Below, in pieces: positions 2,382 to 24,460 of a stretch of DNA of 44,493 bases; position 1 is the stretch's first letter; the number at the start of each line of letters is the position of its first letter. The notes below the pieces were generated by a model that saw nothing but the letters and a program-made list of their open reading frames with translations, did not search any database and had not been told where the DNA came from. The position numbers were made by a program, and so were the translations under genes. Source of the DNA: Sphingobacteriia bacterium 24-36-13 (GTDB lineage Bacteria > Bacteroidota > Bacteroidia > Chitinophagales > Chitinophagaceae); assembly GCA_002281875.1 (NCBI GenBank), contig NCHN01000024.1, positions 1 to 44,493 of the forward strand, in the 5' to 3' direction.

Positions 2382-2414
2382 AAAAAGCGACCAATCAAAT
2401 GGTCGCTTTTTTAT
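2382..2414. terminator. Bidirectional intrinsic terminator between the ABC permease and sprA
   Basis: A 10-bp perfect stem (AAAAGCGACC at 2383-2392, GGTCGCTTTT at 2401-2410) has an 8-nt loop. It is followed by a T run on the plus strand and preceded by an A run that serves the minus strand. It lies between two convergent genes and can end both transcripts. The sprA stop codon (2411-2413) falls inside the minus-strand approach to the stem. Confidence 0.85.
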
Positions 2415-5400
2415 TGTGCTAAAGAAATCCGCACATTCACACCCGCACGGGTATTGGTAATTGGTGCTGATGTTGAAATATAAGGAGTCACTCTTCTTTG
2501 ATCAAAGAATAATTTCACATTGATCCTGCTATTGATTACATAGTCAATAGCAGGTGATATGGTTATTTCTTTTTGTCCACCAGTACCATAGGCATTGGTT
2601 TGATCTAACCTGCTATTACTTATGGATACATCTCTTACAGAAACATCCAGCTTTAAATTCAAATCGTTTTGTAGCCCTTTTCCTGTGATATTAAACGGCA
2701 ATTTAAATCCTCTCTTTCTCCAATTCATTCCAACAATCCATTCAGTGCTCCTGCTTTCGCTTAATTGATAGTCAATCAAACTCAAACTTAACTGTCTGCT
2801 CTTTCTAAATTCTAAATTGAAATTGAACTGACTAATAGTAGTGAAATCAATTTTTAATAAAGGTTCAAAGCGTTCTGCCATACTGATATTGGGCACCAAG
2901 AAGAATGGAATAAAGTTACCACTGGTGGTATCAATAAATCCTGGGGCACTTAGTCTAAATGGATCTTGGTATAAAAGCGCACTACTAAAACTATTCATAC
3001 TCAATTGACCATTGTAGCCATGACTAATGGTAAAATTGCTGAATAAGTTAGCAATGGCTGGTATTTTGGTAAGGCCTGTATAAGTTAATTTCCAGTTTGG
3101 TTTTGGAATAATTCCACTAAAAGGATTGGCACTGATTTTACTTGCACCCTCTCTTAATAAAGCAATGGTATTGGGATCTTTCCCTGTGTAAGCAGCCAAG
3201 AAAGAAGGTATCAATACATCTTGTGCATACCTACCATATCCGGTAGCATATCCATCAGGAGTGAATTTTTGGTTAGCAGGTAATTGCTGCCAGTATGGAT
3301 TTAATGCAGCTACTCTTCTAGACACGACCAATCTATTGGCTTCAAACTCTTTGAATGTTGCTGACAATTCATTTGGATTACTATTTCCAAACAGGGTATT
3401 GAATGCAATATAAGAAACGCTGAAACCTCCGTTAAACAATGGATTCAATTGACCAAAATTATTGCCCGAGCCAGTAGTGTCTTTAATAAGCGCAGTATAG
3501 TCTTTGGTAAATGATTTGTCTAAAGTAATATCAATTAATAACTCTCTTATAGGTTCTATTTGTGCAGTGATATTGAGTCTTTGCTCAAAGCTTTGTCTGT
3601 ACAAAAAGTTGAATGTGCTGTCTTTGGTTAACAAGCCTTTCGAAATTTTATTATTGATCCAATTAGCATCCGGTTGTTTACCAAAAACATAATCTAAACC
3701 AGGTGCCATGGTTTGAAAATTCTGACCAATAAAGTTGGTGCTGTCCATATAACCCGGCAATCGACTTCTAAAGTTTTCTCCGTAATTAATAGAGATATTT
3801 TTGAACATGGTGATGAACTTACCCGCCGATCTTTCAAGCCCACCTAATTCAGGCGTAGTAGCTTGACGCAACATTTTTTCGGCGTTCTTAATATCTCTTC
3901 TTTGTTGTCTCCAACGCTTTAAGGCATCCGTTCTTTTTTGGCCCAATAAACCAGCAATAGCTTCTGCTTTAGTTGGGAATACAGAACCCAACGGATTTAT
4001 TGCTGGTGGTGCACTCTTTCCATTCTTCGGATCATTCTTAGATCGTGGTGGCGGTATATTATCTAATGCTCGCATCCACCTAGACTTAGCATATAAGTTT
4101 CCAAAATTGAATTGTGCATTCAAATTATTCTCTTGCGAATTTTCAATCGTATTCCCTAAGTTCACTGCAATTCTACTTGCACCAATCCAGCTATAAGAAG
4201 TTCCATAACTGTACCGCGCTGTAATCCAATCAGAGAAAGGAAACTTATTCAATGGAATATTGTAATTCATGATGGCTTTCTGCTGATACAGTGTATTTCT
4301 ACCTCCTTTAAAGAAATTAGTTCTAACAGAATCTTTTTTAAGCTTGGTATCAATTCTTCCAAAAGGTTCATCTACTCGAGCGTTATTGGTAGCATTAAAG
4401 TCTACATTAACAGAGCGTGTTAAATCCCAACGTAAATTATAGAAACGATCAAACGTAAAATACTTATCGTAAGTAGTATCTACTCTATCTACTTTACTAT
4501 TTACCGTATTCACAATACGAGGAATAAATTCTCCGAATTGCCTATTAATATCGGCCCTGAAACTTAAGAAAGAAGGCTTTAAATTAAAATTGGCATCTCT
4601 AATAAAAGCCAACCAAGGACTCTTCCCTTTTATTATTTTCTTAAATGGTTCAATAAAATTGTTCTGACCAATATAAGTGTAACCCAATCCTCCTCTATGT
4701 CTGGTCACTTTGTTTTGGGCAATAACCGGACTAGTATGTTCGGTTTGTGTAAAAGAATAACTAAAGTCGAAATTGCTTAAACTTAATAAGCCTGCTCTAC
4801 CTGGACCTTGCAATACTCGAACATTGGTAAAGTTGAGTGTTTTAATAGTTGTAATATCAGCTGCTGCTCGCTTAATAGAATCTCTTTTATCTGGGGCAGC
4901 TGCATTTAATTTATCTCTGTAATTCACATCCATATCGTATGGATCAAATTCAGGAGTTAAAGTTGAACGATTGATGCTTGCATAAATTGGAACAGACAAC
5001 CTTGCTTTTTTAGGAACCAATTTTCCAGCATCAATATTAGCTGCAATATCAAACTGCATTAAATTATCTCTCGCTCTTTCATTCACCCTTTGTTCAATGG
5101 TTCCAAATCCTTGGGTATACGTATTTGCAGAAACAGACAAAGTTCCTAAATCGGCTAATACCAAATCTACCCTACCTAACGCAGCATATCCGCCTTTTTC
5201 ATCCAAACCAGACAACCTTAATTCATTGGCCCATACTTCTGCACTTATGGCTACACCATTGGGTCTAGCAGGATTTTCTACAGCAACTAAAAATCCACGC
5301 ACTTCTCCTAAATTAGGATTACCCATGATCGACATGGTTTTATTGCCAATGATTTTTCTATAAATATTGCTTAGGGAAGCGCCCGAATTATTTCTTTCTA

Positions 5401-8400
5401 ATTTTAAATCTATTAAGTCTCTTAAAAAGAAATCAATATTGTTGTCTTCTGGCCAAACCCTTGCTTCTTGTCCACGAGGATAAATACCAGGAGCAGTTAT
5501 TTTTAGCGGAATTTTTATTTCATAATAATTGTTCAAAAAGTCTTGCCCAATTCTAATGACCGCCCTAATTTCATTATCCACTACTGGCCTTTGACCTGTA
5601 ATAGATTCTGCGTGTAAATACATCGACAATTTGGTGTACCGTCTGATATCCAAATTCAATGTTTTAAAAATTCCTCTTGCATCACCTGCTTGTAAATTAT
5701 TTACGCGCATAGCAATGGCCTGTTCATTCTGCTGTAGGTTTACCCCATTATTACTTAACAATTGAACACGTTCCACATTTGGTGGCATTAAATAATTCAC
5801 TGGGGTTCTGCTGCTGTTCTCTTCTAAGTTTACAGCAAGGGTATTAAATTGTGTTCCTGTTGTTGTATTAATAGGCGTATAAGAACCTGTAGTATCTAAA
5901 TTATAAATGAACTGGCGCCATTGGTTTCTAACTAAATCTAAACGGGCTAATCTTACTACAACTGAATCTTCAAAATCGGTCATGAACAAACGAACAAAAC
6001 GAATCGATTTAAAGTCGGGAATATTTCCAATTTTTCTGGTATAGCCTTTAATGGGAACCCTAAACAAATACCAATCTTCCGTTCTAGTTACCCCATCTGC
6101 AGAGTTAACTGTTACGCGTTTTTTATCGGTGATATAAGGGGTCCTACCTACATCCATTCCAGGAGCCAAGGGCACTTCGTATTCATAATAAGATTCAGAT
6201 TCATTCAAGGTATTGTCTCTATTTAAATCTTCATTATCCGGATAGAGTGTTGCAGCAGAAGTGAATATTCCATCTGAAACAGCAACTGGTGAATTGCCTT
6301 GCGGATTATTAAAGTTTTTATATCGTCCTAAAATTCCTGTTCCAACCGCATCAAAAGCAGGGTCTCGATACCATTGATAGTTATCATTAGAAGGGTCTTG
6401 AAATGCACGCTGATAAACAGCAGAAGCTGGACCAAAATTATTGGCGAGTTGTTGTAGTATATATGCTTTCTTCCTGCGCTCCGCTATATCATCAATACCA
6501 TCAAAGCCCACATCTTGAAAAACTCGATCATTCGGATCGTTGCTAAATGCCTGCGTAATTTGAATTGGATTCACCGGTGTTTTACCCCAAGTATTGCTGC
6601 TATCAACAGAGGCAGGAACAGTAGGCGTATTCATTCCATTTTCATAAAAACGACGTCCATCTTTTAAAATGTCTTCGCTGATATTTCCAAAGTTCAAAAA
6701 TAATTTTCCGCCTCTACTTGCAGGATTAGTAATAAATGGATTCTGCATCCAGAATTCTACGAACTCAATATTATTGGTTTCAAAATCAGTTTGATCAATT
6801 GCACGCATAATTCCACCCCAACGTGTGGTAGGATTGCTCAAACGACCATTGGCATTAATTTGACCAGGGCGGGTTTCAAAATTATAAGGTCCTTTTTCAG
6901 TTGGATAAAAAGCCAAATCAAAAGTTGCTGCTTGAACGTCTGTAATATTCGTAGTTCTTTGCGGAAACAATTCATTGGTAAATACCTGACGAACACGAGG
7001 ATCACTTAGCTCTGCCAAATTTCTACGCAAAGGATTATTCGGACTATTCTTGTCTTGTAAATTCGGCTCAATATTATACCAAGCCATTTTGGCTCGGTTA
7101 AAATTATAATTAATAGAATCGGTTAAAGTAGATTCAGGGAAACGAGGATTCCCCTGAGGTGTCGATGCCAATGCCCAAGACACAAAAGGAAAACGCAAAT
7201 CTATATTGGCGCGAGTTCCTTCAAAATCATCAATAAAAATCAACCCTTGGTCTCCTTTTCCTATTTGTGGTGGATGTCCGGGTTTTAATACAGCTGCTTC
7301 TCCATAAGCATTTATAGAAGACTTTGCATTCGTAGTATAAAAAGGGAGCTTATCTAACATTCTAGTTAAGCCTGGTAATTCTGAACGATAACTAAAATCT
7401 ACCCCATACATGGTATTTCTAATAGGGTCATCTCCGTAACCCATTTTTGTAAAGAAAGGGCGCTCTCCTAATCTTACCATGGATGCTCCAACAGATAATT
7501 TTTTACTCGCTAAATAATCTACCCTTAATCCAGCAAATCCTCTTTGCTGCATACCAAATCCAATATTGTTTTCAAAGTTTACTTTAACTGGAATATTCGC
7601 ACTTAAGATACCTTGGTTCAAAATTTTAACCGTACCCAAATTGTAATCTACAATAAAGTCTGCCCCTTCTCTTAACACTTGCCCTCCTGCAGTTACCGAC
7701 ACCGAACCTTGTGGAATATTAAATGTGTTCAAATAAATTTCAGAACTACCTCCAGACCCTTTCACTTGCCCCTGCATCACAAATCGATTTACATTGGCAA
7801 ATGTTTGCGCAATCGCTTTAATAGAATCATACAACTGATAGTATACATATTTATCCTTGGTTGCCTGTGGCAGGCCTGAAAAAGCAAGTGTATCTAAGTC
7901 TCTACCAAATGGCTCTAATACAGGAAATACCACCCTTCCCATCTGCGGTAAAATGGTAAAGCCTTCTATATAATCAAATACACCATCGGGTTGAGGATCG
8001 TTTCGATTATTGAGTCGATCTAAATTTAAAATTCGCAAGAGTGGCTGACCGTCTACAGTTGGAGCTGTTTCAGGCAAGAATCTTTTTAATCCACCACTTG
8101 GCTCTTCGTATAATACATTTAATTTAAAATCAGTTCTTTCTATGCCACCAAACAAATCTAATGAGTACACATTCTTCATCATCCAACTCCAGATAGGTAA
8201 GTTGGTTCTTTGCGAAGTGGCTTTCAATAATTTTAAGAACAATACTTTTTGAACACCTTGATTAGAATCTAAAGAAATATCCTGTGAAAATTCACCTACT
8301 TGAAATACTCTACCATTGTATGTGTATTGAAAAGCGACTGCCAATACTTCGTCGGCTTGAAGTTGGGTATTAATAGAAAGGAACCCTGCTTGTGCATTAA

Positions 8401-9673
8401 AATAATATTCGTTGGTAGATAATTTTCGTGCAAAAGTTTTTTCAAAATCATCCACAGGTCTCAAGCCTTTGGTCAACAATAAACTATTGATGAATGCAGG
8501 ATTTCTTGCATTCGGATCACCTGCTAAAGAAGCATATAAATTATTGGCGCCATTTGCAGGCAATGGATTATTGGTTAAAGACTGAATTGCATTATTAAAA
8601 GGAGAAGGTTCACCTAAATCCATCAAACCCACAATATCTCTTGCATCTGTAGTGGCGCCTGTTCTATTGGTTACCCAAACTTCCATACGTTGAATTTGTA
8701 CCTGAGAATTCACAACAGGCAAATTGCGCATGGTTTTATTAAAATTGTCTTTGAAATATTTACCTAATAAAAAGTGCCTGTTCTCTTCATATTCATCTAA
8801 CTTCTTTTGAAAGGACTGGGTAGCTGCACCTCCTTGTAAATTTAAACTTTGCCTAGAAGATCGCTGGTTAGCCAACGCACCTGTCACAAATAATTTTCCA
8901 AATTGCAATTGTGCTTTAACCCCAAATAAGTTTTGTGCACTAGGAATTAAAGTTCCCTTCGATTGAAAGGAGATATTCCCTGCTTCAATGCTCTTGATGA
9001 TTTCATCGTCCATTCCTTTGTAATCTAATTTCAATTGGTTGTCGAAACCTAAATTGGTAAGGGTATTATAGTTGATGGGGAATTTGAGTTTATCGCCAAT
9101 ATTCGCATTCAAATTTAGATTGGCATTCATATCAAAGTCGAAGCCCCCATTTTTTCTAGCACGTTCAGGCAATGTAGGGTTTTTGATATTTTGACCTTGA
9201 TAACCAGCCATTACATTCACTTCACCAGATGGGCGAATATCTACTTTCAGGTTTTGACCAGTTAACCCAAATATTCGATCGAATAATTTAGGATAGGTTT
9301 GTAAAGGAGGTCGTTTTGTTTTTTGATTTAATAAAGAAAGTGCATCCGCTCTTTTCTTAAAATAATCGTTCTCCGATTTTTTAGCTTCCAGTTTCCAAAA
9401 ATCTTCAAAAGAAATGGCAGCAGGTTTGCGGTACCAAATATTACCAATTTTTTCGCTAATAAAATAAGACTTGGTTTTAGGATCGTACGTTGTTTTTCTT
9501 TTTACTAATCCAGTGTCTTTTATATCAAAAGGATTTTTATTAGGAGCACTCATGGCATCCCCTCTTCTGTCTTGAATAGGAAAACGCAAACTATCTTTCG
9601 TTTGGGCAAAAGAATTAGTACACCACAGAATGGTCAAACAAAAAAACAAAATGGAGAAGGAATACTTCAACAA
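2411..9673 (-). CDS. sprA: SprA/Sov, outer-membrane translocon of the type IX secretion system
   Basis: SprA is the giant beta-barrel through which type IX secretion substrates, including gliding adhesins, cross the outer membrane. The protein has 2420 aa, the usual size. An N-terminal Sec signal (hydrophobic stretch ending TNSFAQ, about residue 24) precedes long runs of alternating beta strands rich in Asn and aromatic residues. It ends in a strand of outer-membrane type (AGVNVRISLAQ). No ATG precedes the signal peptide; the first in-frame Met is about residue 41. Translation must therefore start at one of the tandem TTG codons (9671-9673 or 9668-9670), or possibly at the CTG just upstream. 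The gene sits 36 bp behind ruvA, an arrangement common in Bacteroidota, and the two are probably co-transcribed. Confidence 0.95.
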   Translation of the reverse strand: MLKYSFSILFFCLTILWCTNSFAQTKDSLRFPIQDRRGDAMSAPNKNPFDIKDTGLVKRKTTYDPKTKSYFISEKIGNIWYRKPAAISFEDFWKLEAKKSENDYFKKRADALSLLNQKTKRPPLQTYPKLFDRIFGLTGQNLKVDIRPSGEVNVMAGYQGQNIKNPTLPERARKNGGFDFDMNANLNLNANIGDKLKFPINYNTLTNLGFDNQLKLDYKGMDDEIIKSIEAGNISFQSKGTLIPSAQNLFGVKAQLQFGKLFVTGALANQRSSRQSLNLQGGAATQSFQKKLDEYEENRHFLLGKYFKDNFNKTMRNLPVVNSQVQIQRMEVWVTNRTGATTDARDIVGLMDLGEPSPFNNAIQSLTNNPLPANGANNLYASLAGDPNARNPAFINSLLLTKGLRPVDDFEKTFARKLSTNEYYFNAQAGFLSINTQLQADEVLAVAFQYTYNGRVFQVGEFSQDISLDSNQGVQKVLFLKLLKATSQRTNLPIWSWMMKNVYSLDLFGGIERTDFKLNVLYEEPSGGLKRFLPETAPTVDGQPLLRILNLDRLNNRNDPQPDGVFDYIEGFTILPQMGRVVFPVLEPFGRDLDTLAFSGLPQATKDKYVYYQLYDSIKAIAQTFANVNRFVMQGQVKGSGGSSEIYLNTFNIPQGSVSVTAGGQVLREGADFIVDYNLGTVKILNQGILSANIPVKVNFENNIGFGMQQRGFAGLRVDYLASKKLSVGASMVRLGERPFFTKMGYGDDPIRNTMYGVDFSYRSELPGLTRMLDKLPFYTTNAKSSINAYGEAAVLKPGHPPQIGKGDQGLIFIDDFEGTRANIDLRFPFVSWALASTPQGNPRFPESTLTDSINYNFNRAKMAWYNIEPNLQDKNSPNNPLRRNLAELSDPRVRQVFTNELFPQRTTNITDVQAATFDLAFYPTEKGPYNFETRPGQINANGRLSNPTTRWGGIMRAIDQTDFETNNIEFVEFWMQNPFITNPASRGGKLFLNFGNISEDILKDGRRFYENGMNTPTVPASVDSSNTWGKTPVNPIQITQAFSNDPNDRVFQDVGFDGIDDIAERRKKAYILQQLANNFGPASAVYQRAFQDPSNDNYQWYRDPAFDAVGTGILGRYKNFNNPQGNSPVAVSDGIFTSAATLYPDNEDLNRDNTLNESESYYEYEVPLAPGMDVGRTPYITDKKRVTVNSADGVTRTEDWYLFRVPIKGYTRKIGNIPDFKSIRFVRLFMTDFEDSVVVRLARLDLVRNQWRQFIYNLDTTGSYTPINTTTGTQFNTLAVNLEENSSRTPVNYLMPPNVERVQLLSNNGVNLQQNEQAIAMRVNNLQAGDARGIFKTLNLDIRRYTKLSMYLHAESITGQRPVVDNEIRAVIRIGQDFLNNYYEIKIPLKITAPGIYPRGQEARVWPEDNNIDFFLRDLIDLKLERNNSGASLSNIYRKIIGNKTMSIMGNPNLGEVRGFLVAVENPARPNGVAISAEVWANELRLSGLDEKGGYAALGRVDLVLADLGTLSVSANTYTQGFGTIEQRVNERARDNLMQFDIAANIDAGKLVPKKARLSVPIYASINRSTLTPEFDPYDMDVNYRDKLNAAAPDKRDSIKRAAADITTIKTLNFTNVRVLQGPGRAGLLSLSNFDFSYSFTQTEHTSPVIAQNKVTRHRGGLGYTYIGQNNFIEPFKKIIKGKSPWLAFIRDANFNLKPSFLSFRADINRQFGEFIPRIVNTVNSKVDRVDTTYDKYFTFDRFYNLRWDLTRSVNVDFNATNNARVDEPFGRIDTKLKKDSVRTNFFKGGRNTLYQQKAIMNYNIPLNKFPFSDWITARYSYGTSYSWIGASRIAVNLGNTIENSQENNLNAQFNFGNLYAKSRWMRALDNIPPPRSKNDPKNGKSAPPAINPLGSVFPTKAEAIAGLLGQKRTDALKRWRQQRRDIKNAEKMLRQATTPELGGLERSAGKFITMFKNISINYGENFRSRLPGYMDSTNFIGQNFQTMAPGLDYVFGKQPDANWINNKISKGLLTKDSTFNFLYRQSFEQRLNITAQIEPIRELLIDITLDKSFTKDYTALIKDTTGSGNNFGQLNPLFNGGFSVSYIAFNTLFGNSNPNELSATFKEFEANRLVVSRRVAALNPYWQQLPANQKFTPDGYATGYGRYAQDVLIPSFLAAYTGKDPNTIALLREGASKISANPFSGIIPKPNWKLTYTGLTKIPAIANLFSNFTISHGYNGQLSMNSFSSALLYQDPFRLSAPGFIDTTSGNFIPFFLVPNISMAERFEPLLKIDFTTISQFNFNLEFRKSRQLSLSLIDYQLSESRSTEWIVGMNWRKRGFKLPFNITGKGLQNDLNLKLDVSVRDVSISNSRLDQTNAYGTGGQKEITISPAIDYVINSRINVKLFFDQRRVTPYISTSAPITNTRAGVNVRISLAQ

Positions 9674-17669: not shown

Positions 17670-18449
17670 ATGATGAAATTTAGTTTAGCATTTTCCCCCT
17701 GCCCCAACGATACTTTTATTTTTGATGCCTTAGTAAATCAGAAAATAGACACGAAAGGAATAACATTCGAAGTTTTTTTAGAAGACGTGCAAACCTTGAA
17801 TGAGTGGGCCATTCAAGGGAAGATGGATTTTTCAAAAATCAGTTATGGAGTTTGGAATAAAGTGAATCACCAGTATAGCTTACTCAATAGCGGAGGTGCA
17901 CTCGGCAAGGGTGTAGGACCATTGCTAATCACAAAACCTGGAAACATCAACTCGGTAAATGACATGACCATAGCCATTCCAGGAGAAAATACGACCGCGC
18001 ATTTGTTATTTAGTCTGGCCTATCCCAATGCAACTAAAAAAGTATTCAAAGTATTTCACGAAATAGAAAACGCAGTGTTGAATGGAGAAGTTGATGCAGG
18101 AGTGATCATACACGAAAACCGCTTTACTTACGAAGCAAAGGGATTAAAAAAAATTATAGACCTCGGCGCATATTGGGAAGAAACACAACAATTGCCCATT
18201 CCACTCGGAGGAATCATTGCAAAAAAAACCATTGACCCAGCAATCGTACAACAAGTGGACGAATTAATAAAGCAAAGTATTGAATATGCATTTGCCCACT
18301 ACCCTACTGTTGCACCCTATGTGATAGCGCATGCACAAGAAATGAGCGAAGAAGTGATGCGGCAGCATATCAATCTCTATGTAAACAATTTTTCGCTCGA
18401 TCTCGGCGCAGAAGGACTACTTGCTGTAGAAAAACTAACACGCATATAA
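17670..18449 (+). CDS. mqnD: 1,4-dihydroxy-6-naphthoate synthase (MqnD)
   Basis: MqnD cleaves cyclic dehypoxanthinyl futalosine to 1,4-dihydroxy-6-naphthoate in futalosine-dependent menaquinone synthesis. The 259-aa protein has the periplasmic-binding-like fold of the family. The N-terminal substrate loop is FSPCPNDTFIFDALV, the core motif DFSKISYGVW, and the glycine-rich GGALGKGVGPLL precedes the second lobe. The conserved GEVDAGVIIHENRFTY holds the catalytic-type His. Two ATGs in tandem (17670, 17673) could start it. It lies 33 bp behind mqnB. The hairpin repeat at 18451 begins just one base after its stop codon. Confidence 0.95.
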   Translation: MMKFSLAFSPCPNDTFIFDALVNQKIDTKGITFEVFLEDVQTLNEWAIQGKMDFSKISYGVWNKVNHQYSLLNSGGALGKGVGPLLITKPGNINSVNDMTIAIPGENTTAHLLFSLAYPNATKKVFKVFHEIENAVLNGEVDAGVIIHENRFTYEAKGLKKIIDLGAYWEETQQLPIPLGGIIAKKTIDPAIVQQVDELIKQSIEYAFAHYPTVAPYVIAHAQEMSEEVMRQHINLYVNNFSLDLGAEGLLAVEKLTRI

Positions 18450-18450
18450 G

Positions 18451-18533
18451 ACTTGTGTCTGTAACTCTTCATGCCTTCGCTACAATCCGTTAACACGTCT
18501 TAAATGCTCGGCATGAATTTTCCAGACACAAGT
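18451..18533. repeat. Variable-stem, conserved-core hairpin repeat, copy A1 (3' of mqnD)
   Basis: The outer arms ACTTGTGTCTG (18451-18461) and CAGACACAAGT (18523-18533) are perfectly complementary. Inner arms TTCATGCC (18468-18475) and GGCATGAA (18510-18517) are also perfect. The loop, 18476-18509, is the family core (TTCGCTACAATCC...GTCTTAAATGCTC). It begins one base after the mqnD stop codon. The core is shared with the copies at 18546, 22791 and 23057, while the arms are not. It may act as a terminator or mRNA 3'-end element, though there is no canonical T run. Confidence 0.8.
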
Positions 18534-18545
18534 AATAACTAAGTG

Positions 18546-18622
18546 TGCATCAGGAAAATTTTTTCTGAGCATTTAAGACTTCGAAGAAGGATTGCAGCGA
18601 AGAAAAAATGTTTGCTGATGCA
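18546..18622. repeat. Variable-stem, conserved-core hairpin repeat, copy A2 (3' of the multicopper oxidase)
   Basis: Outer arms TGCATCAG (18546-18553) and CTGATGCA (18615-18622) and inner arms ATTTTTTCT (18558-18566) and AGAAAAAAT (18601-18609) are perfect inverted repeats. They enclose the core GAGCATTTAAGAC...GGATTGCAGCGAA, on the opposite strand from copy A1. It ends 7 nt from the stop codon of the minus-strand oxidase gene. In the sense direction of that gene the core therefore reads the same way as A1 does behind mqnD. Confidence 0.8.
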
Positions 18623-18629
18623 TGTGTAA

Positions 18630-20804
18630 TTAATAGTTCATAGCTAATCCAATCCCAAATCCCATATCACTATCATAATGAATGCGCATACCGGCATTTT
18701 TAGCTAGGATATAGTTTGTAGACAACATATATTCCTTATCGGAGTTAATCATAAAAGCAGCCCTAATTCTTTTTGATATAGGAATATCCTCTCGTTTAAG
18801 TTGCACACGCAAATAACCAGTGTGATATACTTCGGTTTGCAAGGTCACCAACATAGGTAAGGTATAAGCAATACCTAAACTCATTTGAGTGCGTACATCT
18901 TTTGTATTTTTTTGTCGAAAAATATTTTGCTCTACTGCATGAATACCCTGTTTTCTGTATCTCCAATCAAATCCAATAAATGGCATTAACCACTGCATTC
19001 TACCTATATACCTGCCAATATGTGTTTCGCTCTCATAGCCATGCATATCATTGTACCCCAAACGCCATTCAGTAGAAATACTCCATCGAGTATTTTGCAA
19101 CATCGCCATCCCATCATTCCCATTAGTAGCAAAATCATTTTGTGTCATAAAGTGGAAGGGATTGCTTTCTTTTTGAAGTTGTTTATAAGCCCATTTTTTA
19201 TTCGGCAATAATGGATTATCCTTTTGCTTATCATAACTAAAAACACGATTCATTCCAGCCATCATATGATAAAGTATATGACAATGAAAGAACCAATCAC
19301 CTTCGGTATTTGCTTCAAATTCGATGGTGTCCGTTTCCATAGGCATAATGTCTAACACATTTTTCAATGGAGCATAATCTCCTTGTCCATTAATTATTCT
19401 AAAATCATGGCCATGCAAATGCATAGGATGACGCATCATTGAATTATTGTACAAAGTAATCCGGACAATTTCTCCTTTTTTTATTAAAATTTTATCGGAC
19501 TCTGCAAGTACTTTATTATCCATACTCCACACATACCTGTTCATATTACCTGTTAATTCAAAATGCAGATCTTTTCTGGGAATATTTGAACTAAAATTGG
19601 TTTTGATTGGAGATTTAAGTTTAGTATAGTTCAATGTGTTAAGCGTATTTTCTTCTGCATACATTACAGAATTCATATCCATTTTCTGCATGCTCATATC
19701 CATGCCCATTGCATCCATTTCTCCATTCATCTTCATCATATCATTCATCATCTGCATTCCTTCAAAATAATTCAGTTTTGCAAGTGGCTTAGCAAATACT
19801 TTAGTCCCTGATCCTAAAAAAAATGAAGCAGACTTGATGCGGTCTTCAGATGTAACCAAAAGCTCGTAAGCATTTCCACCAACTGGGATAGTTACTAAAA
19901 TGTCATAGGTTTCAGATACACCAATAATCAATCGATCAACTTCAAAAGGAACTACATCATTTCCATCATTGGCTACCACAGTTATTGGACCACCCCCATA
20001 ATTAACCCAGAAGTAAGTAGAAGCGCCGCCATTTGAGATACGAAGCCTTATTTTATCGCCGGCTTTAAATGAAGACAAATTACTTGTGGTTTTTCCATTT
20101 ATCAGTACAGCATCATAATAAATATCGCTTACGTCCATTGCCAGCATTCTCTTCCACTCATTGTTTAGTTTAGTTTTAAAATGACCTGAACGAATTGCTT
20201 CAGCATAACTTTGGGTAGTTCCCTTTTTAATAGCAAACCAATCAGAAGCATTGTGTAACAATCGATGAACATTTTCAGGCTTAAAGTTAGTCCACTCACT
20301 CAATATGATTGGGATAGCGGGCAAATCATCAATCCCTTTTCTAAAGCTTGAATCAGTATCGCTCTTGTTTAATATTAAAGAGCCATACATACCAATTTGT
20401 TCCTGTAATCCACTATGGCTGTGATACCAATGTGTTCCATTTTGAATAATGGGGAAGCGATATAAATGCTTACTTCCAGGTTCAATAGGCATCTGAGTTA
20501 AAAATGGAACACCATCTTCTATATTGGGCAAGAACAAACCATGCCAATGAAGTGAAGTAGATTCATTCAATAGATTATGAACTACTATTTCAGCAGTATC
20601 GCCTTCAGTAAATGTAAGCGTTGGCATTGGAATTTGCCCATTTACAGCTATTGCTCTTTTTGCTTTACTCGCAAAATTGACAATGGTATCTTTAACATAC
20701 AAATCATATCTAACTACTTTTTGTGCAACTACCAAGGTTGTTATCAAAACAAACAATAAGCTAACAATTAACTTATAAGAGCAATAAAAAGTAGTAGACT
20801 TCAT
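18630..20804 (-). CDS. Copper-resistance multicopper oxidase (CopA-like) with Met-rich loop and C-terminal extra domain
   Basis: A secreted cuproxidase, probably oxidising Cu(I) in the periplasm. A signal peptide occupies about residues 1-28. Copper ligands are HWHG (86-89), HWYHSH (125-130), HPMHLHGH (459-466) and HCHILYHMMAGM (507-518), so the type 1, 2 and 3 sites are complete. A Met-rich segment (about 350-382) resembles the copper-binding inserts of CopA and CueO. After the oxidase ends (about 530), some 155 residues of alternating strands follow, with GYESETHIGRYIGR near 589. These resemble the CopB outer-membrane copper protein, so this may be a CopA-CopB-like fusion. It is last in a copper operon, 8 bp after the DUF2911 gene. 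Confidence 0.93.
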   Translation of the reverse strand: MKSTTFYCSYKLIVSLLFVLITTLVVAQKVVRYDLYVKDTIVNFASKAKRAIAVNGQIPMPTLTFTEGDTAEIVVHNLLNESTSLHWHGLFLPNIEDGVPFLTQMPIEPGSKHLYRFPIIQNGTHWYHSHSGLQEQIGMYGSLILNKSDTDSSFRKGIDDLPAIPIILSEWTNFKPENVHRLLHNASDWFAIKKGTTQSYAEAIRSGHFKTKLNNEWKRMLAMDVSDIYYDAVLINGKTTSNLSSFKAGDKIRLRISNGGASTYFWVNYGGGPITVVANDGNDVVPFEVDRLIIGVSETYDILVTIPVGGNAYELLVTSEDRIKSASFFLGSGTKVFAKPLAKLNYFEGMQMMNDMMKMNGEMDAMGMDMSMQKMDMNSVMYAEENTLNTLNYTKLKSPIKTNFSSNIPRKDLHFELTGNMNRYVWSMDNKVLAESDKILIKKGEIVRITLYNNSMMRHPMHLHGHDFRIINGQGDYAPLKNVLDIMPMETDTIEFEANTEGDWFFHCHILYHMMAGMNRVFSYDKQKDNPLLPNKKWAYKQLQKESNPFHFMTQNDFATNGNDGMAMLQNTRWSISTEWRLGYNDMHGYESETHIGRYIGRMQWLMPFIGFDWRYRKQGIHAVEQNIFRQKNTKDVRTQMSLGIAYTLPMLVTLQTEVYHTGYLRVQLKREDIPISKRIRAAFMINSDKEYMLSTNYILAKNAGMRIHYDSDMGFGIGLAMNY

Positions 20805-20812
20805 GTTACAAG

Positions 20813-21367
20813 CTATTTAACGTTTTGAAACGGCAGAATAACCGTTAGTAACTCCCAACTTACTTCAATATTACCTTTATCACTTGAAGTTCTTACCACT
20901 TTATATGTAAGAGATTCAGTAATATCCTTGTTCACTATTGGCTTAACCGTAACACGAACGATATCATTTTCTACTTTATAGGCGTCAGCCAAATGCATAT
21001 CCCAATCTTTACTTAAAATGAGTATCCATTCTTCCTTATTGGGGATTGTGAAAAATCCATATTTACCTTTTGGTATAAGTTTACCAGCTATTTGCACATC
21101 ACTAGAAAATTCTATCCAAGTAGCTTTATGTGCACCAGTGGCCCAAACTTGACCATATGCAACTAAACCATTCCAAATATTCCTTCCTCTAACACTTGGT
21201 GAACCATAATCAATATGCACGTGGTTTTTCCCTACAAGAGCCATTGCAGAACGGCGTGGACTTTTTGCTTTCACAACTGTATCAGCACTAGTCTGATGAT
21301 TTTCGTGTTGTGCATTCGTACTAATCGTAATCAATAAAGTAAAAAATAAAAATAATAAACTACGCAT
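20813..21367 (-). CDS. DUF2911 family secreted protein
   Basis: A 184-aa exported protein with a signal peptide ending about TNAQ (residue 19) and a following His-rich stretch (HENHQTS). The body matches the DUF2911 pattern: RRSAMALVGKNHVHIDYGSPSVRGRNIWNGLVAYGQVW, then WATGAHKATWIEFSSDV, and KGKYGFFTIP. The molecular function of DUF2911 is not known. Here it lies between an HMA-domain membrane protein and the multicopper oxidase with 8-9 bp gaps. A periplasmic role in copper handling is a reasonable inference, not shown. Confidence 0.88.
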   Translation of the reverse strand: MRSLLFLFFTLLITISTNAQHENHQTSADTVVKAKSPRRSAMALVGKNHVHIDYGSPSVRGRNIWNGLVAYGQVWATGAHKATWIEFSSDVQIAGKLIPKGKYGFFTIPNKEEWILILSKDWDMHLADAYKVENDIVRVTVKPIVNKDITESLTYKVVRTSSDKGNIEVSWELLTVILPFQNVK

Positions 21368-21376
21368 ATGATTTTT

Positions 21377-22096
21377 TTAATTGTAAAAATGATAAAGTAA
21401 CATCCAAACACTCATACCAATCATTAATAAATCTTCAATAATAGTAATCGTACTCATTGGTAAGTTAAATACTGCTCCTAAACAAGCGCACTGAATTTGT
21501 TTTTTATTCAATACAGACTGCAATACACCAATAATACTGATTCCCATTACTAAGAAAGTAACTGAATTGGTAATAACAACGTTAAAGTTAAGCAAAAAAG
21601 CTAGGCCAAGTGCTAATTCAATAAAAGGATAAATATATGCCCATCCATTAAAACGTTTAGCTACTATATCATACATCTGATAGCTTTCTGCAAATCCTTT
21701 AAGATTTAACAATTTAAAAAAAGAGAACACCAAAAAGAAAGCAGCCATAAAATATTGCATCCATTGCATCCAATCAAAAACTGAATTAGTAAATTGAATT
21801 AATAATGTTGAACTAGCTATGTAAATAAAAATTAATAAAACAGGCTTGTATGTTTCAAACCAACTTTTGGCTTGTTCTGTCATTTCTGAATGACTTAGCG
21901 CTGTAATTTGGTATTTAGGATCTAAAGCGCTTTGAAAAGTATTCAAAGAAATATGCTTATCCATAGTAATTGTTGCTGAGCTCAATTCTTTAGAAACTTC
22001 AACTTCGGTTACAAAGGGAACCATTAACAAGGCAGATTTAACTTTAGCAACACAGTTCCCACAGGTCATTCCTGTAATTTGATATTGATGTACCAT
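21377..22096 (-). CDS. HMA-domain membrane protein (N-terminal CxxC copper-binding domain, C-terminal MauE/DoxX-like membrane domain)
   Basis: An N-terminal heavy-metal-associated domain with the metal-binding GMTCGNC is followed by about four membrane segments (from about residue 83 on). A Cys pair lies near the end (QIQCACLGAVFNLP), as in MauE/MerT-like proteins. This suggests metal capture and handover at the inner membrane, and context points to copper. I prefer the ATG at 22096 (MVHQYQITGMTCGN); an in-frame ATG at 22117 would add seven residues. It heads the three-gene copper operon. A perfect dyad at 22164-22182 lies 68 bp upstream and is a candidate operator. Confidence 0.85.
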   Translation of the reverse strand: MVHQYQITGMTCGNCVAKVKSALLMVPFVTEVEVSKELSSATITMDKHISLNTFQSALDPKYQITALSHSEMTEQAKSWFETYKPVLLIFIYIASSTLLIQFTNSVFDWMQWMQYFMAAFFLVFSFFKLLNLKGFAESYQMYDIVAKRFNGWAYIYPFIELALGLAFLLNFNVVITNSVTFLVMGISIIGVLQSVLNKKQIQCACLGAVFNLPMSTITIIEDLLMIGMSVWMLLYHFYN

Positions 22097-22163
22097 AGTA
22101 TTTATTTTATGGTACAAAATTCAGCCAATTCAGCCCTTATATCTTTGTAGAATTATAGATATA

Positions 22164-22182
22164 ATTTGTAAGATTTACAAAT
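22164..22182. promoter_or_regulatory. Candidate operator: 19-bp perfect dyad upstream of the copper operon
   Basis: The sequence ATTTGTAA-GAT-TTACAAAT is a perfect 8-bp inverted repeat with a 3-bp centre. It lies 68 bp before the start of the HMA membrane gene and 7 bp after the end of the AraC-type regulator. A second, looser inverted repeat is next to it (TATATCT 22138-22144, AGATATA 22157-22163). Binding by the adjacent regulator is inferred from position only. Confidence 0.45.
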
Positions 22183-22188
22183 GCCAAA

Positions 22189-22749
22189 TTATAATTCATC
22201 TATATTAAATCGCTTCTTAATTTTTAAATTTTTGAAATGAGAGGGAGTTAGGCCAGTAATTTTTTTGAACTGATTACTCAAATAGGCAACACTACTATAA
22301 TTCAATGTGTATGCTATCTCACTTAGACTCATTTCATCGTACATTAAAAGTTCTTTTACTCTTTCAATCTTTTGAAGAATAAAATATTTTTCAATGGTAA
22401 TCCCTTCTACATCAGAAAAAAGGTTACTTAGAGATGAGTAGTCTGTATTCAACTTTTGGCGCAAATAGTCAGACAAATTCATACCTAATTCATTGTCTTT
22501 TTGATGAACCAACTCTCTAATCAAATTTTTGATTTGCTCAATTGTTTTCCCCCTTTTATCATCAATTATTTCAAACCCAAAACTCAATAAAAGTTCAGCA
22601 ATCTGCTTTTTCTGGGTAGTATTTATATTTTCGATTGTTTCAACTTCACCTAATTCAATAGACTTCAATGAAAACCCTAATTTTTCTAACTCGGTTTTCA
22701 CAATCAGCTTGCACCTGCCACAAACCATATTTTTAATATAGAGTTTCAC
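22189..22749 (-). CDS. AraC-type transcriptional regulator with N-terminal HMA-like CxxC domain (putative copper sensor)
   Basis: The 186-aa protein joins two parts. Residues 1-65 resemble an HMA fold with a CxxC pair (MVCGRC, Cys10 and Cys13) and the usual alternating strand-helix pattern (KLIVKTELEKLGF, ELLLSFGFEII). Residues about 85-180 form an AraC helix-turn-helix pair, with helix-turn-helix 1 around MSLSEIAYTLNYSSVAYLSNQF and the family signature KKITGLTPSHFK. It starts at GTG (22747-22749). The gene lies just upstream of the copper operon on the same strand. Metal-triggered activation of that operon is a strong contextual inference; the metal is not proven. Confidence 0.88.
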   Translation of the reverse strand: MKLYIKNMVCGRCKLIVKTELEKLGFSLKSIELGEVETIENINTTQKKQIAELLLSFGFEIIDDKRGKTIEQIKNLIRELVHQKDNELGMNLSDYLRQKLNTDYSSLSNLFSDVEGITIEKYFILQKIERVKELLMYDEMSLSEIAYTLNYSSVAYLSNQFKKITGLTPSHFKNLKIKKRFNIDEL

Positions 22750-22790
22750 GCATACTTATTTAACTAAAATTAAAAAAAGATACCAAATTA

Positions 22791-22857
22791 TTCAGGATAA
22801 CCTTTTCTTCGCTGCAATCCGTAAACGTCTTAAATGCTCAGAAAAGGTTATCCTGAA
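22791..22857. repeat. Variable-stem, conserved-core hairpin repeat, copy B1
   Basis: Perfect 17-bp arms (22791-22807 beginning TTCAGGATAACC, 22841-22857 ending GGTTATCCTGAA) enclose a 33-nt core. The core reads TTCGCTGCAATCC...GTCTTAAATGCTC, the same as in copy A1 apart from a short central gap and one base. The arm sequence is unrelated to that of any other copy. It lies 42 bp upstream of the AraC-type regulator gene and, unlike the other intact copies, does not follow a stop codon directly. Confidence 0.85.
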
Positions 22858-22869
22858 GCATTCATTACT

Positions 22870-23045
22870 GAGCATTTAAGGCTTCTATATGCTACTGCGT
22901 TGGAGTCTAGATTAAATTAGTGCTCTGGGGAAAAATTCTCCACATTTAAAACTTCAAAAAATACCTAGGAGAAAGCATTTATGAACTGTTGTATGGCATG
23001 TAAATCTTCTCATTTAAAACTACAAAAAGTGTTGCTGCATTGAGG
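22870..23045. repeat. Degenerate copies of the hairpin-repeat core (three units)
   Basis: Three decayed core copies lie in the same orientation as the 23057 copy: 22870-22905 (GAGCATTTAAGGCTTC...), 22943-22975 (CATTTAAAACTTC...) and 23011-23045 (CATTTAAAACTAC...TTGCTGCATTGAGG). The second is preceded by a left arm almost identical to that of the 23057 copy but lacks a matching right arm. With the flanking intact copies they account for most of the 397-bp gene-free stretch 22750-23146. No protein-coding gene is visible in that stretch. Confidence 0.6.
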
Positions 23046-23089
23046 TATAGATTAAATTAGTCCTCTGGGGAAAAATTCTCCACATTTAA
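22908..23089 (+). repeat. 42-bp direct repeat, 140-bp period, inside the hairpin array
   Basis: 22908-22949 and 23048-23089 are identical except for one base (G at 22922, C at 23062). The unit starts TAGATTAAATTAG and contains CTCTGGGGAAAAATTCTCCA. It covers the left arm and the first bases of the core of a hairpin element. The spacing indicates a segmental duplication of about 140 bp, after which only the right-hand copy kept a complementary right arm. Confidence 0.85.
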
Positions 23090-23139
23090 GACCTTGAAAA
23101 GGGATTGTAGTGGAGAATTTTTCAACCCCAGAGGACTAA
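23057..23139. repeat. Variable-stem, conserved-core hairpin repeat, copy B4 (3' of the photolyase)
   Basis: A 27-bp stem with a single 3-nt bulge: TTAGTCCTCTGGGG (23057-23070) pairs with CCCCAGAGGACTAA (23126-23139), and AAAAATTCTCCAC (23071-23083) pairs with GTGGAGAATTTTT (23110-23122). The loop (23084-23109, ATTTAAGACC...GGGATTGTA) is a variant of the family core. It ends 7 nt from the photolyase stop codon. In the photolyase sense direction its core has the same orientation as the copies behind mqnD and the oxidase. Confidence 0.85.
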
Positions 23140-23146
23140 ATAAAAT

Positions 23147-24460
23147 TTAAGAAGGCTTCAACGCAGCAGCATAAGTTTCAAGGACTCTTTTCCGCGCCAC
23201 TTCATGCACTACCATCGGCTGCGGATAGCCGAACGCTTGAAATTCCGGCACCCACTTTTTAATATATTTTAATTCTTTATCAAATTTCTCTGTTTGCAAA
23301 TAAGGATTAAAGACCCTAAAATAGGGAGCAGCATCACAACCGCTACTAGCAGCCCATTGCCAACCACCATTATTGGCAGACAAATCAAAGTCTAATAATT
23401 TATTGGCAAAATAAGCTTCGCCCCAACGCCAATCGATGAGTAAATGTTTAGTCAAAAACGACGCGACAATCATTCGAACACGATTGTGCATAAAACCAGT
23501 TGCATTCAATTCACGCATACCTGCATCTACAATAGGATAACCCGTTTTACCCTCACACCATTTTTTAAACTCTTCTTCGTTATTGCGCCATTTTATTTTT
23601 TCGTATTCCGCTTTAAATGCATGGCCCTTTCCTACTTTAGGGAAATGCCATAAAATCATTTGATAAAAATCTCTCCAAATTAATTCGTTCAAATAAGTTT
23701 CATTTAAACCAGCAGCAATCGTTGCAAGTGAACGAATACTCACTGTACCAAATCTTAAGTGTACACCCATTTTAGAAGTACCATTTTCCAGTGCGGGAAA
23801 ATCTCTGTTCTGGCTATACTTACGAACAATCTCTTCATTTAATTGCTTAGAAGGAAACACTGTTTCAACTTCTTCAAAATTCATTGAAGCCAAACTAGGA
23901 ATGGCAAAGGGTGATAGTTTATAAAAATTAGCAAAATATTTTTCAGTAGGATAGGCTTTCAAATAATCAGGAGTTAATTTGGCTTTCCATTTTCTTGAAT
24001 AAGGCGTAAAAACCGTGTATGGCTTACCATCATCTTTGGTTACTTCGTCCTTTTCAAAAATGACTTGGTCTTTAAATGTTTTAAAACCAATACCATTTGC
24101 AGAAAGCAAATCCGCAACAGCAGCATCTCTTTCTTGCGCATAAGGTTCATAATCGTGATTAGAAAAAACGGTTTGAACAGTATAAGTTGAAACTAGTTCA
24201 GTAAATACTTCCAAAGGCTTTCCATGAAATACCTGCATGCTACTTCCCATAGCAACCAATTCTGTTTGCATTTCAGTAATAGCCGCGTGAATAAATGCAA
24301 CACGTTTATCGGAACGATCTTGCAGTTGAGCTAGAATTGAAGTATCAAAAATAAAAATGGGTAAAACAGGCTCACCCAATTTCAATGCATGGTATAATGC
24401 TGCATTGTCTTTTAATCGTAAGTCTCTTCTGAACCAAATGATATTAATGGAAGGCTTCAT
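23147..24460 (-). CDS. Deoxyribodipyrimidine photolyase / cryptochrome family protein
   Basis: A light-driven, flavin-dependent DNA repair enzyme, or a related cryptochrome, of 437 aa. The N-terminal antenna-binding Rossmann domain begins INIIWFRRDLRLKDNAAL. The C-terminal FAD-binding helical domain includes LNELIWRDFYQMILWHFP, the segment GYPIVDAGMRELNATGFMHNRVRM, and the FAD-contact run WQWAASSGCDAAPYFRVFNP. These are features of the class I CPD photolyase group. CPD versus (6-4) activity, and the antenna, cannot be settled here. It starts at the ATG at 24460. A hairpin repeat follows its stop codon at once. Confidence 0.95.
   Translation of the reverse strand: MKPSINIIWFRRDLRLKDNAALYHALKLGEPVLPIFIFDTSILAQLQDRSDKRVAFIHAAITEMQTELVAMGSSMQVFHGKPLEVFTELVSTYTVQTVFSNHDYEPYAQERDAAVADLLSANGIGFKTFKDQVIFEKDEVTKDDGKPYTVFTPYSRKWKAKLTPDYLKAYPTEKYFANFYKLSPFAIPSLASMNFEEVETVFPSKQLNEEIVRKYSQNRDFPALENGTSKMGVHLRFGTVSIRSLATIAAGLNETYLNELIWRDFYQMILWHFPKVGKGHAFKAEYEKIKWRNNEEEFKKWCEGKTGYPIVDAGMRELNATGFMHNRVRMIVASFLTKHLLIDWRWGEAYFANKLLDFDLSANNGGWQWAASSGCDAAPYFRVFNPYLQTEKFDKELKYIKKWVPEFQAFGYPQPMVVHEVARKRVLETYAAALKPS

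Follow-up and report, generated by a model that had tools for sequence, protein, structure and literature searches.

Hairpins with a near-constant core and co-changing arms at the borders of two gene-insertion spots in a small bacterial clade

How can a family of hairpins keep nearly the same core while its stems differ from copy to copy? This question is raised by contig NCHN01000024.1 of Sphingobacteriia bacterium 24-36-13 (assembly GCA_002281875.1), whose 44,493 nucleotides were analysed at full length and are called the window here. A sequence-only reading of this DNA had described four intact and three decayed hairpins in a 4.7-kb region, with a shared core in the loop of unrelated but self-complementary stems. 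Here, we found that the element is a near-constant, non-palindromic core (CATTTAAGA / GATTGYAG, or a sister core) within arms that change together, and that its copies are clustered, inverted and nested locally and border two insertion spots, which are tight in most of the relatives measured. Genomes, contigs and loci carry G, C and L numbers, respectively, and G000 is the genome of the window.

Folding confirmed all four intact copies, with DNA fold z-scores between -4.6 and -8.2 (Table 1), and for each copy none of 200 dinucleotide shuffles was equally stable. Paired arms were found inside every one of them, and the three decayed copies were also recovered. When the window was scanned for ungapped stems (loops of 20-60 nt, score of at least 15), three stems were obtained, all within the four hairpins: copy 3, copy 4 and one stem that pairs copy 1 with copy 2. 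Two shuffled windows, which served as control, yielded a single stem above 15 (15.4) in one of them.

The core consists of CATTTAAGA, an apical hairpin of 2-6 bp and GATTGYAG. Its fold comprises a closing C-G pair, an ATT/YA internal loop, a TAA/TTG helix of three pairs, a GA/GA tandem and the apical stem, which covaries too. Thus, the core is conserved as had been proposed, but it is a structured element and not a plain loop. Across copies and loci it is near-invariant and the arms are variable. Its flanks are GAG/CGA in copies 1-3, paired CCA/TGG in copy 4 and GCT/AGC or TCT/AGG in relatives. The idea that all intact copies share the core holds for CATTTAAGAC...GGATTGTAG, which copy 4 retains although its GAG/CGA flank has been replaced.

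Complementarity of the arms within each copy was quantified in 11 copies from six genomes and two loci, which were picked for alignment without awkward gaps. Pairing was found in 197 of 209 cells (94.3%) compared with 67.0% in shuffles, 15 of the 19 stem pairs were altered on both sides, and 55 cells carried double changes (18.8 ± 3.1 in shuffles). The covariation score amounted to 0.717, a value reached by none of 500 shuffles (0.215 ± 0.033), and slid controls scored 0.186-0.313. These data provide strong evidence for structure, and they support the earlier suggestion that selection acts on structure together with a signal in the conserved core. The statement that stems of different copies have nothing in common was too strong: for the 5' arms of ten paralogues, the summed pairwise identity was 424 (340.9 ± 9.4 in mononucleotide shuffles, none of 2,000 being as high). 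This residual likeness indicates that the stems are best viewed as diverged copies carrying compensating changes rather than as unrelated sequences, and it leaves the insertion of a bare core into existing hairpins unsupported. Conserved internal loops enclosed by covarying stems are the usual sign of structured RNA or of folded single-strand DNA sites, and the pattern is therefore less odd than it had been judged.

To survey the genus (147 genomes), a covariance model was built on six copies and run with strict filters (those for more than 40 genomes). It gave 29 matches in 10 genomes, and these counts are lower bounds since the model missed second-site copies in G086 and G090 that a pattern search caught. 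All but one of the matches (28/29) sit in a single gap, where mqnD and phr converge. Among the 28 non-carriers with both genes in the fetched loci, this gap measured 9-149 bp in 24. Longer gaps (286 to 1033 bp) were observed in the non-carriers G041, G074, G073 and G003 and, judged by coordinates, longer ones also occur in G005 and G021. When a phr tree was built for 19 genomes, the carriers having this gene (nine) fell on one side of a branch (support 100/99), and the nine carriers having mqnD do so in the mqnD tree (85/99). The tree and gap data fit a single opening of a tight junction, with the hairpins carried ever since.

Insertions at the mqnD-phr junction occur in the genus even where these hairpins are lacking. 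By eye, the inserts contain dehydrogenase-like genes in G003 and G021 and small other genes in G073 and G005. In G003, a related hairpin adjoins phr, and long hairpins with an internal loop resembling C.TTTA / TGYAG fill or edge the gap in L154 (G074), L162 (G023) and L155 (G003). A scan of 1.28 Mb for the generic C.TTTA / TGYAG hairpin returned eight matches, two of them with weak, chance-like folds, and none in the reversed control. The matches lay in the window, in G017 and at mqnD-phr of G003, G023 and G074, where the hairpins are perhaps older relatives.

In its own genome, the strict pattern had four copies and none outside this 4.7-kb region; an ungapped scan of the other G000 contigs (258 kb), which misses bulged stems, detected no copy. 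A looser own-genome match on contig C89 did not fold (z +0.8) and was discarded. The looser core pattern matched in 86 of the 147 genomes, and among the matches listed most had, by eye, no paired apical part and appeared chance-like. An order-wide covariance search of 198 genomes gave one match beyond the own genome (G320); its fold is that of an ordinary hairpin with a short loop, and it was not accepted as a family copy. At least 120 viral stretches matched the core pattern; arm pairing was scored in each of these 120 and reached 13 of 16 at most, a range that the weakest true copies overlap (10-16 of 16), and they were rejected. One query each of phages and plasmids gave no match to the core. 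Since no dispersal was seen in the genus, own-genome and contig searches, a dispersed, genome-wide repeat family, as originally envisaged, was rejected. Of the two outcomes that the sequence-only reading had named as refuting it, a scarcity of further copies in the genome thus holds for dispersal within these searches, and arms that pair no better than chance were not observed.

A second gap, between dut and DUF4292, was likewise opened in seven carriers, which are all those in which both genes were found. Between the two gene matches it measures 30, 30, 66 and 123 bp in G003, G013, G074 and G061, respectively. The same core, with a six-pair apical stem, is present there in G085, G086 and G090. 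The same gap holds the sister core GAGGCATTT...AGCTAACGA (GGCATTTRA / TYAGCTAACGA), whose exact pattern had nine matches in five of the 147 genomes, at dut-DUF4292 only. Stems at this site differ between copies and pair near-perfectly, and the cargo varies (a toxin-antitoxin-like Gp49/HTH pair, a zeta-toxin gene, a Fic gene and others). Both gaps thus contain variable cargo flanked by outward-pointing hairpins. In G000 the second site is unassembled: dut was not found and the DUF4292 match begins at a contig edge. It starts with residue 150 at the first base of G000:C36:1 (L475), and the match in G121:C124 (L460) starts with residue 42; both breaks were perhaps caused by hairpins disrupting assembly. 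A third related hairpin, GAGCATTTC...GGGCAGCGA, was located at G017:C1:2814206-2814312 (L273) between convergent receptor-like and fumarase-like genes (labels by eye), with half copies on both sides. It was the one further related hairpin in 800 kb of G017 scanned without gaps; of five intact hairpins already known from that stretch, the scan listed four, the bulged one on the phr side escaping it.

The outermost intact hairpins share an orientation. Their CATTTAA strand points outward at mqnD in 8/8 genomes, at phr in 9/9, at dut in 5/5 and at DUF4292 in 7/7; the count covers genomes with a core match at the respective border, and G086 and G052, which lack a strict core at dut, were dropped there. 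This strand is also the better folder in 31 (RNA parameters) and 30 (DNA parameters) of 33 distinct copies. Among its stem mismatches, G.T outnumbered A.C by 27 to 7 under loose and by 13 to 3 under strict alignment (p = 0.021), and this mismatch bias points weakly to selection on the CATTTAA strand.

Comparison of related genomes indicated how the copies change. Copies 1 and 2 of G000 are inverted relative to G086, G011, G123, G090 and G108. Copy 1 shares 32 of 34 bases of its left outer arm with the mqnD-side fragment of G090, and its right outer arm is an exact 11-nt complement of its own left arm and unlike that of the same five relatives. The right arm may have been rewritten from the left, a history that we moderately favour over differential loss of two ancestral hairpins. 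In G090, a whole hairpin is nested in the core of another one, and G086 has a single hairpin at this place. Past the stem of copy 4, the palindrome extends over an inverted copy of the end of phr; with up to three mismatches, this pattern has three matches in the window including phr itself (0.02 expected), and similar inverted copies were seen by eye in G121, G086, G011, G017 and G090. One phr-side hairpin is common to G121 and G000/G086, nearly base for base, and G121 retains half of a hairpin that is intact in G011. It follows that stems are inherited within an orthologous copy and differ between copies.

Template switching had been put forward as a possible source of the matched arms. According to PMC8794818, this process can make and keep hairpins, renewing the stems while the loop stays, and is predicted to leave a directional base-pair excess. 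The arm, inversion and inverted phr-end patterns support such an origin here: inversion, nesting and flank copying fit products of replication template switching, and the evidence for renewal of the stems in this way is moderate.

To account for these data, we propose a hairpin element, about 65-90 nt long, that is specific to one clade and bound to particular loci, with template-switched stems and a core under selection on the CATTTAA strand, an explanation to which we give an even chance. Copies would multiply through local duplication. Their stems would be renewed during replication, when the strand folds back at the hairpin so that one arm serves as template for the other; neighbouring gene ends could enter the palindrome through the same event. 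Selection would maintain the core and would act on the CATTTAA strand in its folded, single-stranded state. As to function, we infer that this strand is most likely recognised, as a hairpin of single-stranded DNA, at a border prone to recombination, similar in principle to attC or REP sites with another recogniser; second to this we place a role as RNA, in transcripts that run out of the island.

Several observations weigh against this proposal. The 29 outward orientations out of 29 represent four independent borders only, and when shared contexts were collapsed the G.T to A.C ratio was a weak 11 to 3 (p = 0.057). The excess of G-C over C-G and of T-A over A-T had the sign expected for template switching and was not significant (p = 0.14 and 0.12). 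Further pair types were mildly enriched (25 vs 21.5), with 51 of 500 shuffles equal or above. Some copies carry the core variants CATTTAATA, CATTTAATCC and GATTGCCG, and the arm pattern of copy 1 can also be explained by differential loss. Insertions at mqnD-phr without these hairpins (G073, G005, G021) imply that the hairpins are dispensable for cargo. All related sequences found belong to one genus, and relatedness inflates every count. Finally, no recogniser was found, Y1 transposases being the only class searched for.

If the folded strand were RNA, a protein or ribonuclease could read the internal loops in transcripts that leave the island and terminate, process or stabilise these transcripts, which would shield the border genes. 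We consider this scenario somewhat unlikely. It would account for conserved internal loops within covarying stems, for the better folding of the CATTTAA strand (31/33), for the 13 to 3 preponderance of G.T and for an orientation in which outermost hairpins would present this strand only in outgoing transcripts. However, the mRNAs of mqnD, phr and dut would hold the other, less stable strand, no U-run was seen by eye to follow the hairpins consistently, Rfam had no match at gathering score, and the inverted (-,+) pairs place both strands in one read-through transcript.

Alternatively, the hairpins may be functionless by-products of mutation, i.e. quasi-palindromes perfected by template switching, whose cores are alike by recent common origin. 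In favour of this view, copies are clustered locally, inverted and nested, some are halves only, gene ends are found copied in inverted form, and other kinds of long hairpin occur in the same gap of G023, G061 and G074. However, switching primed by the apical stem should erase the mismatches of the internal loops, yet nearly the same mismatches persist across carrier species and two loci, and the same strand folds better in nearly all copies. A purely mutational origin is unlikely in our view.

A more far-reaching variant of the proposed single-strand DNA element appears doubtful to us at present: outward single-strand hairpins, recognised by their folded core rather than by their stems, would be the ends of a new type of gene-capture island, and their stems would be rewritten by template switching. 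If true, such gene-capture hairpins would open tight gene junctions and exchange cargo such as copper genes and toxin-antitoxin modules.

That the hairpins are ordinary bidirectional transcription terminators of convergent genes is very improbable. Most border copies do adjoin stop codons at gene-gene junctions, but the many terminator-like hairpins of G017 have 14-17 bp stems, loops of 3-5 nt and A/T tracts, whereas the family has a conserved structured core without a consistent U-run, and the DUF4292 border is the 5' side of a gene.

Whatever the mechanism, ten related genomes and two loci provide a natural series in which conserved-core hairpins can be compared while they invert, nest and re-match their arms. 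This series would allow the debated role of template switching in hairpin upkeep to be tested in bacteria. Should the core prove to be a recognition site, a reader of single-strand hairpins that is not yet known would be expected at the borders of gene insertions.

The features of the locus are summarized in Table 1. The genome of the window is Sediminibacterium-like within the Chitinophagaceae, and the nearest named phr relative is 72% identical. Elsewhere in the window (2411-9673), a 2420-aa frame has SprA_N domain matches (motility-related / secretion protein).

Table 1. Hairpin copies, cargo and border genes of the mqnD-phr insertion spot in the window
Feature	Position	Strand	Remarks
mqnD (VitK2_biosynth)	17670..18449	+	left border gene of the insertion spot
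Copy 1	18451..18533	-	intact; directly after mqnD stop codon; core 18477-18509, - strand; z -6.1
Copy 2	18546..18622	+	intact; core 18567-18600; inverted (-,+) pair with copy 1; z -4.6
Cargo between hairpin pairs	18630..22749	-	four genes
Multicopper oxidase	18630-20804	-	cargo
DUF2911	20813-21367	-	cargo
HMA-MauE	21377-22117	-	cargo
AraC-type regulator	22189-22749	-	cargo
Copy 3	22791..22857	-	intact; perfect 18-bp stem; core 22809-22839; z -8.0
Decayed copy GAGCATTTAAGGC	22866..22886	+	GAGCATTTAAGGC itself at 22870-22882
Inverted copy of phr 3' end	22888..22905	+	16/18 bases; far side of copy-4 palindrome
Decayed copy	22917..22960 (approximate)	+	reduced to 5' arm and 5' half core; copy-4 related; family D2, 85% identity
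Decayed copy	23002..23028 (approximate)	+	5' half core only; family D3, 85% identity
Copy 4	23057..23139	+	intact; adjoins phr stop codon; core 23083-23110; z -8.2
phr (photolyase family)	23147..24460	-	right border gene

Among known systems, REP, REPIN and BIME elements, mobilised by RAYT / TnpA-REP Y1 transposases, are alike in being intergenic palindromes with inverted dimers (PMC3733652, PMC6006769); they differ from the present family, which has low copy numbers and a conserved core rather than a conserved stem. The inverted (-,+) pairs look like REPIN-like dimers (PMC3733652) and the 3' core contains GTAG/GCAG, but that such a transposase moves the hairpins is hardly credible, since dispersal is not seen, GYAG lies within the hairpin away from its foot, and the Y1 transposase family PF01797, for which the sequence-only reading had suggested a search, had no match at E <= 0.001 in any of the ten carriers (one of them, G108, being 78% complete). 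PF01797 matches were obtained in 9 of the 30 genomes searched, all of them non-carriers. A GTAG/CGTC tetranucleotide was not found at the foot, and inspection by eye showed no tetranucleotide common to the outer ends. Because of the missing Y1 transposase, dispersal and GTAG foot, we did not file the family as REP/RAYT.

The attC sites of integrons resemble the present hairpins in several respects described in PMC2727003: imperfect hairpins with poor sequence conservation, structural features, recognition of one strand and mobile cargo nearby; the same source has them alike at their outer R boxes. No conserved outer boxes of the R'/R'' type were detected here, the outer arms differing between copies by eye. 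There is one attC site per cassette, in direct orientation, whereas the outermost hairpins described here are inverted at both loci. The element may nevertheless work like an attC site, though without conserved outer boxes. Comparable in layout are the dif modules of Acinetobacter, whose cargo includes toxin-antitoxin genes and is bounded by pdif recombination sites; these differ in being sites of the Xer type, on plasmids.

Hairpins made and maintained by template switching (quasi-palindrome correction; PMC8794818) are alike in that the loop is kept, inversions and flank copies arise and, as far as the moderate evidence goes, matched arms are renewed together; that account concerns RNA genes and microRNAs, whereas the present case is a bacterial intergenic repeat with a near-fixed core at island borders. 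The hairpin-forming repeats of sponge mitochondria (PMC2800124) are likewise intergenic, multiply and can lie in tandem, but their stems are conserved and their loops vary, which is the reverse of this family.

When the window and four other loci were compared with Rfam, scores stayed below the gathering threshold, and at E up to 5 only microRNA, snoRNA and sRNA models were obtained, far under their cut-offs. Queries with the core strings and with phrases retrieved no description from the literature searched, which excludes most subscription papers. Within Rfam and this literature the element appears undescribed. As a covarying hairpin it is known in principle; new are its near-fixed core, its free stems and its position at island borders.

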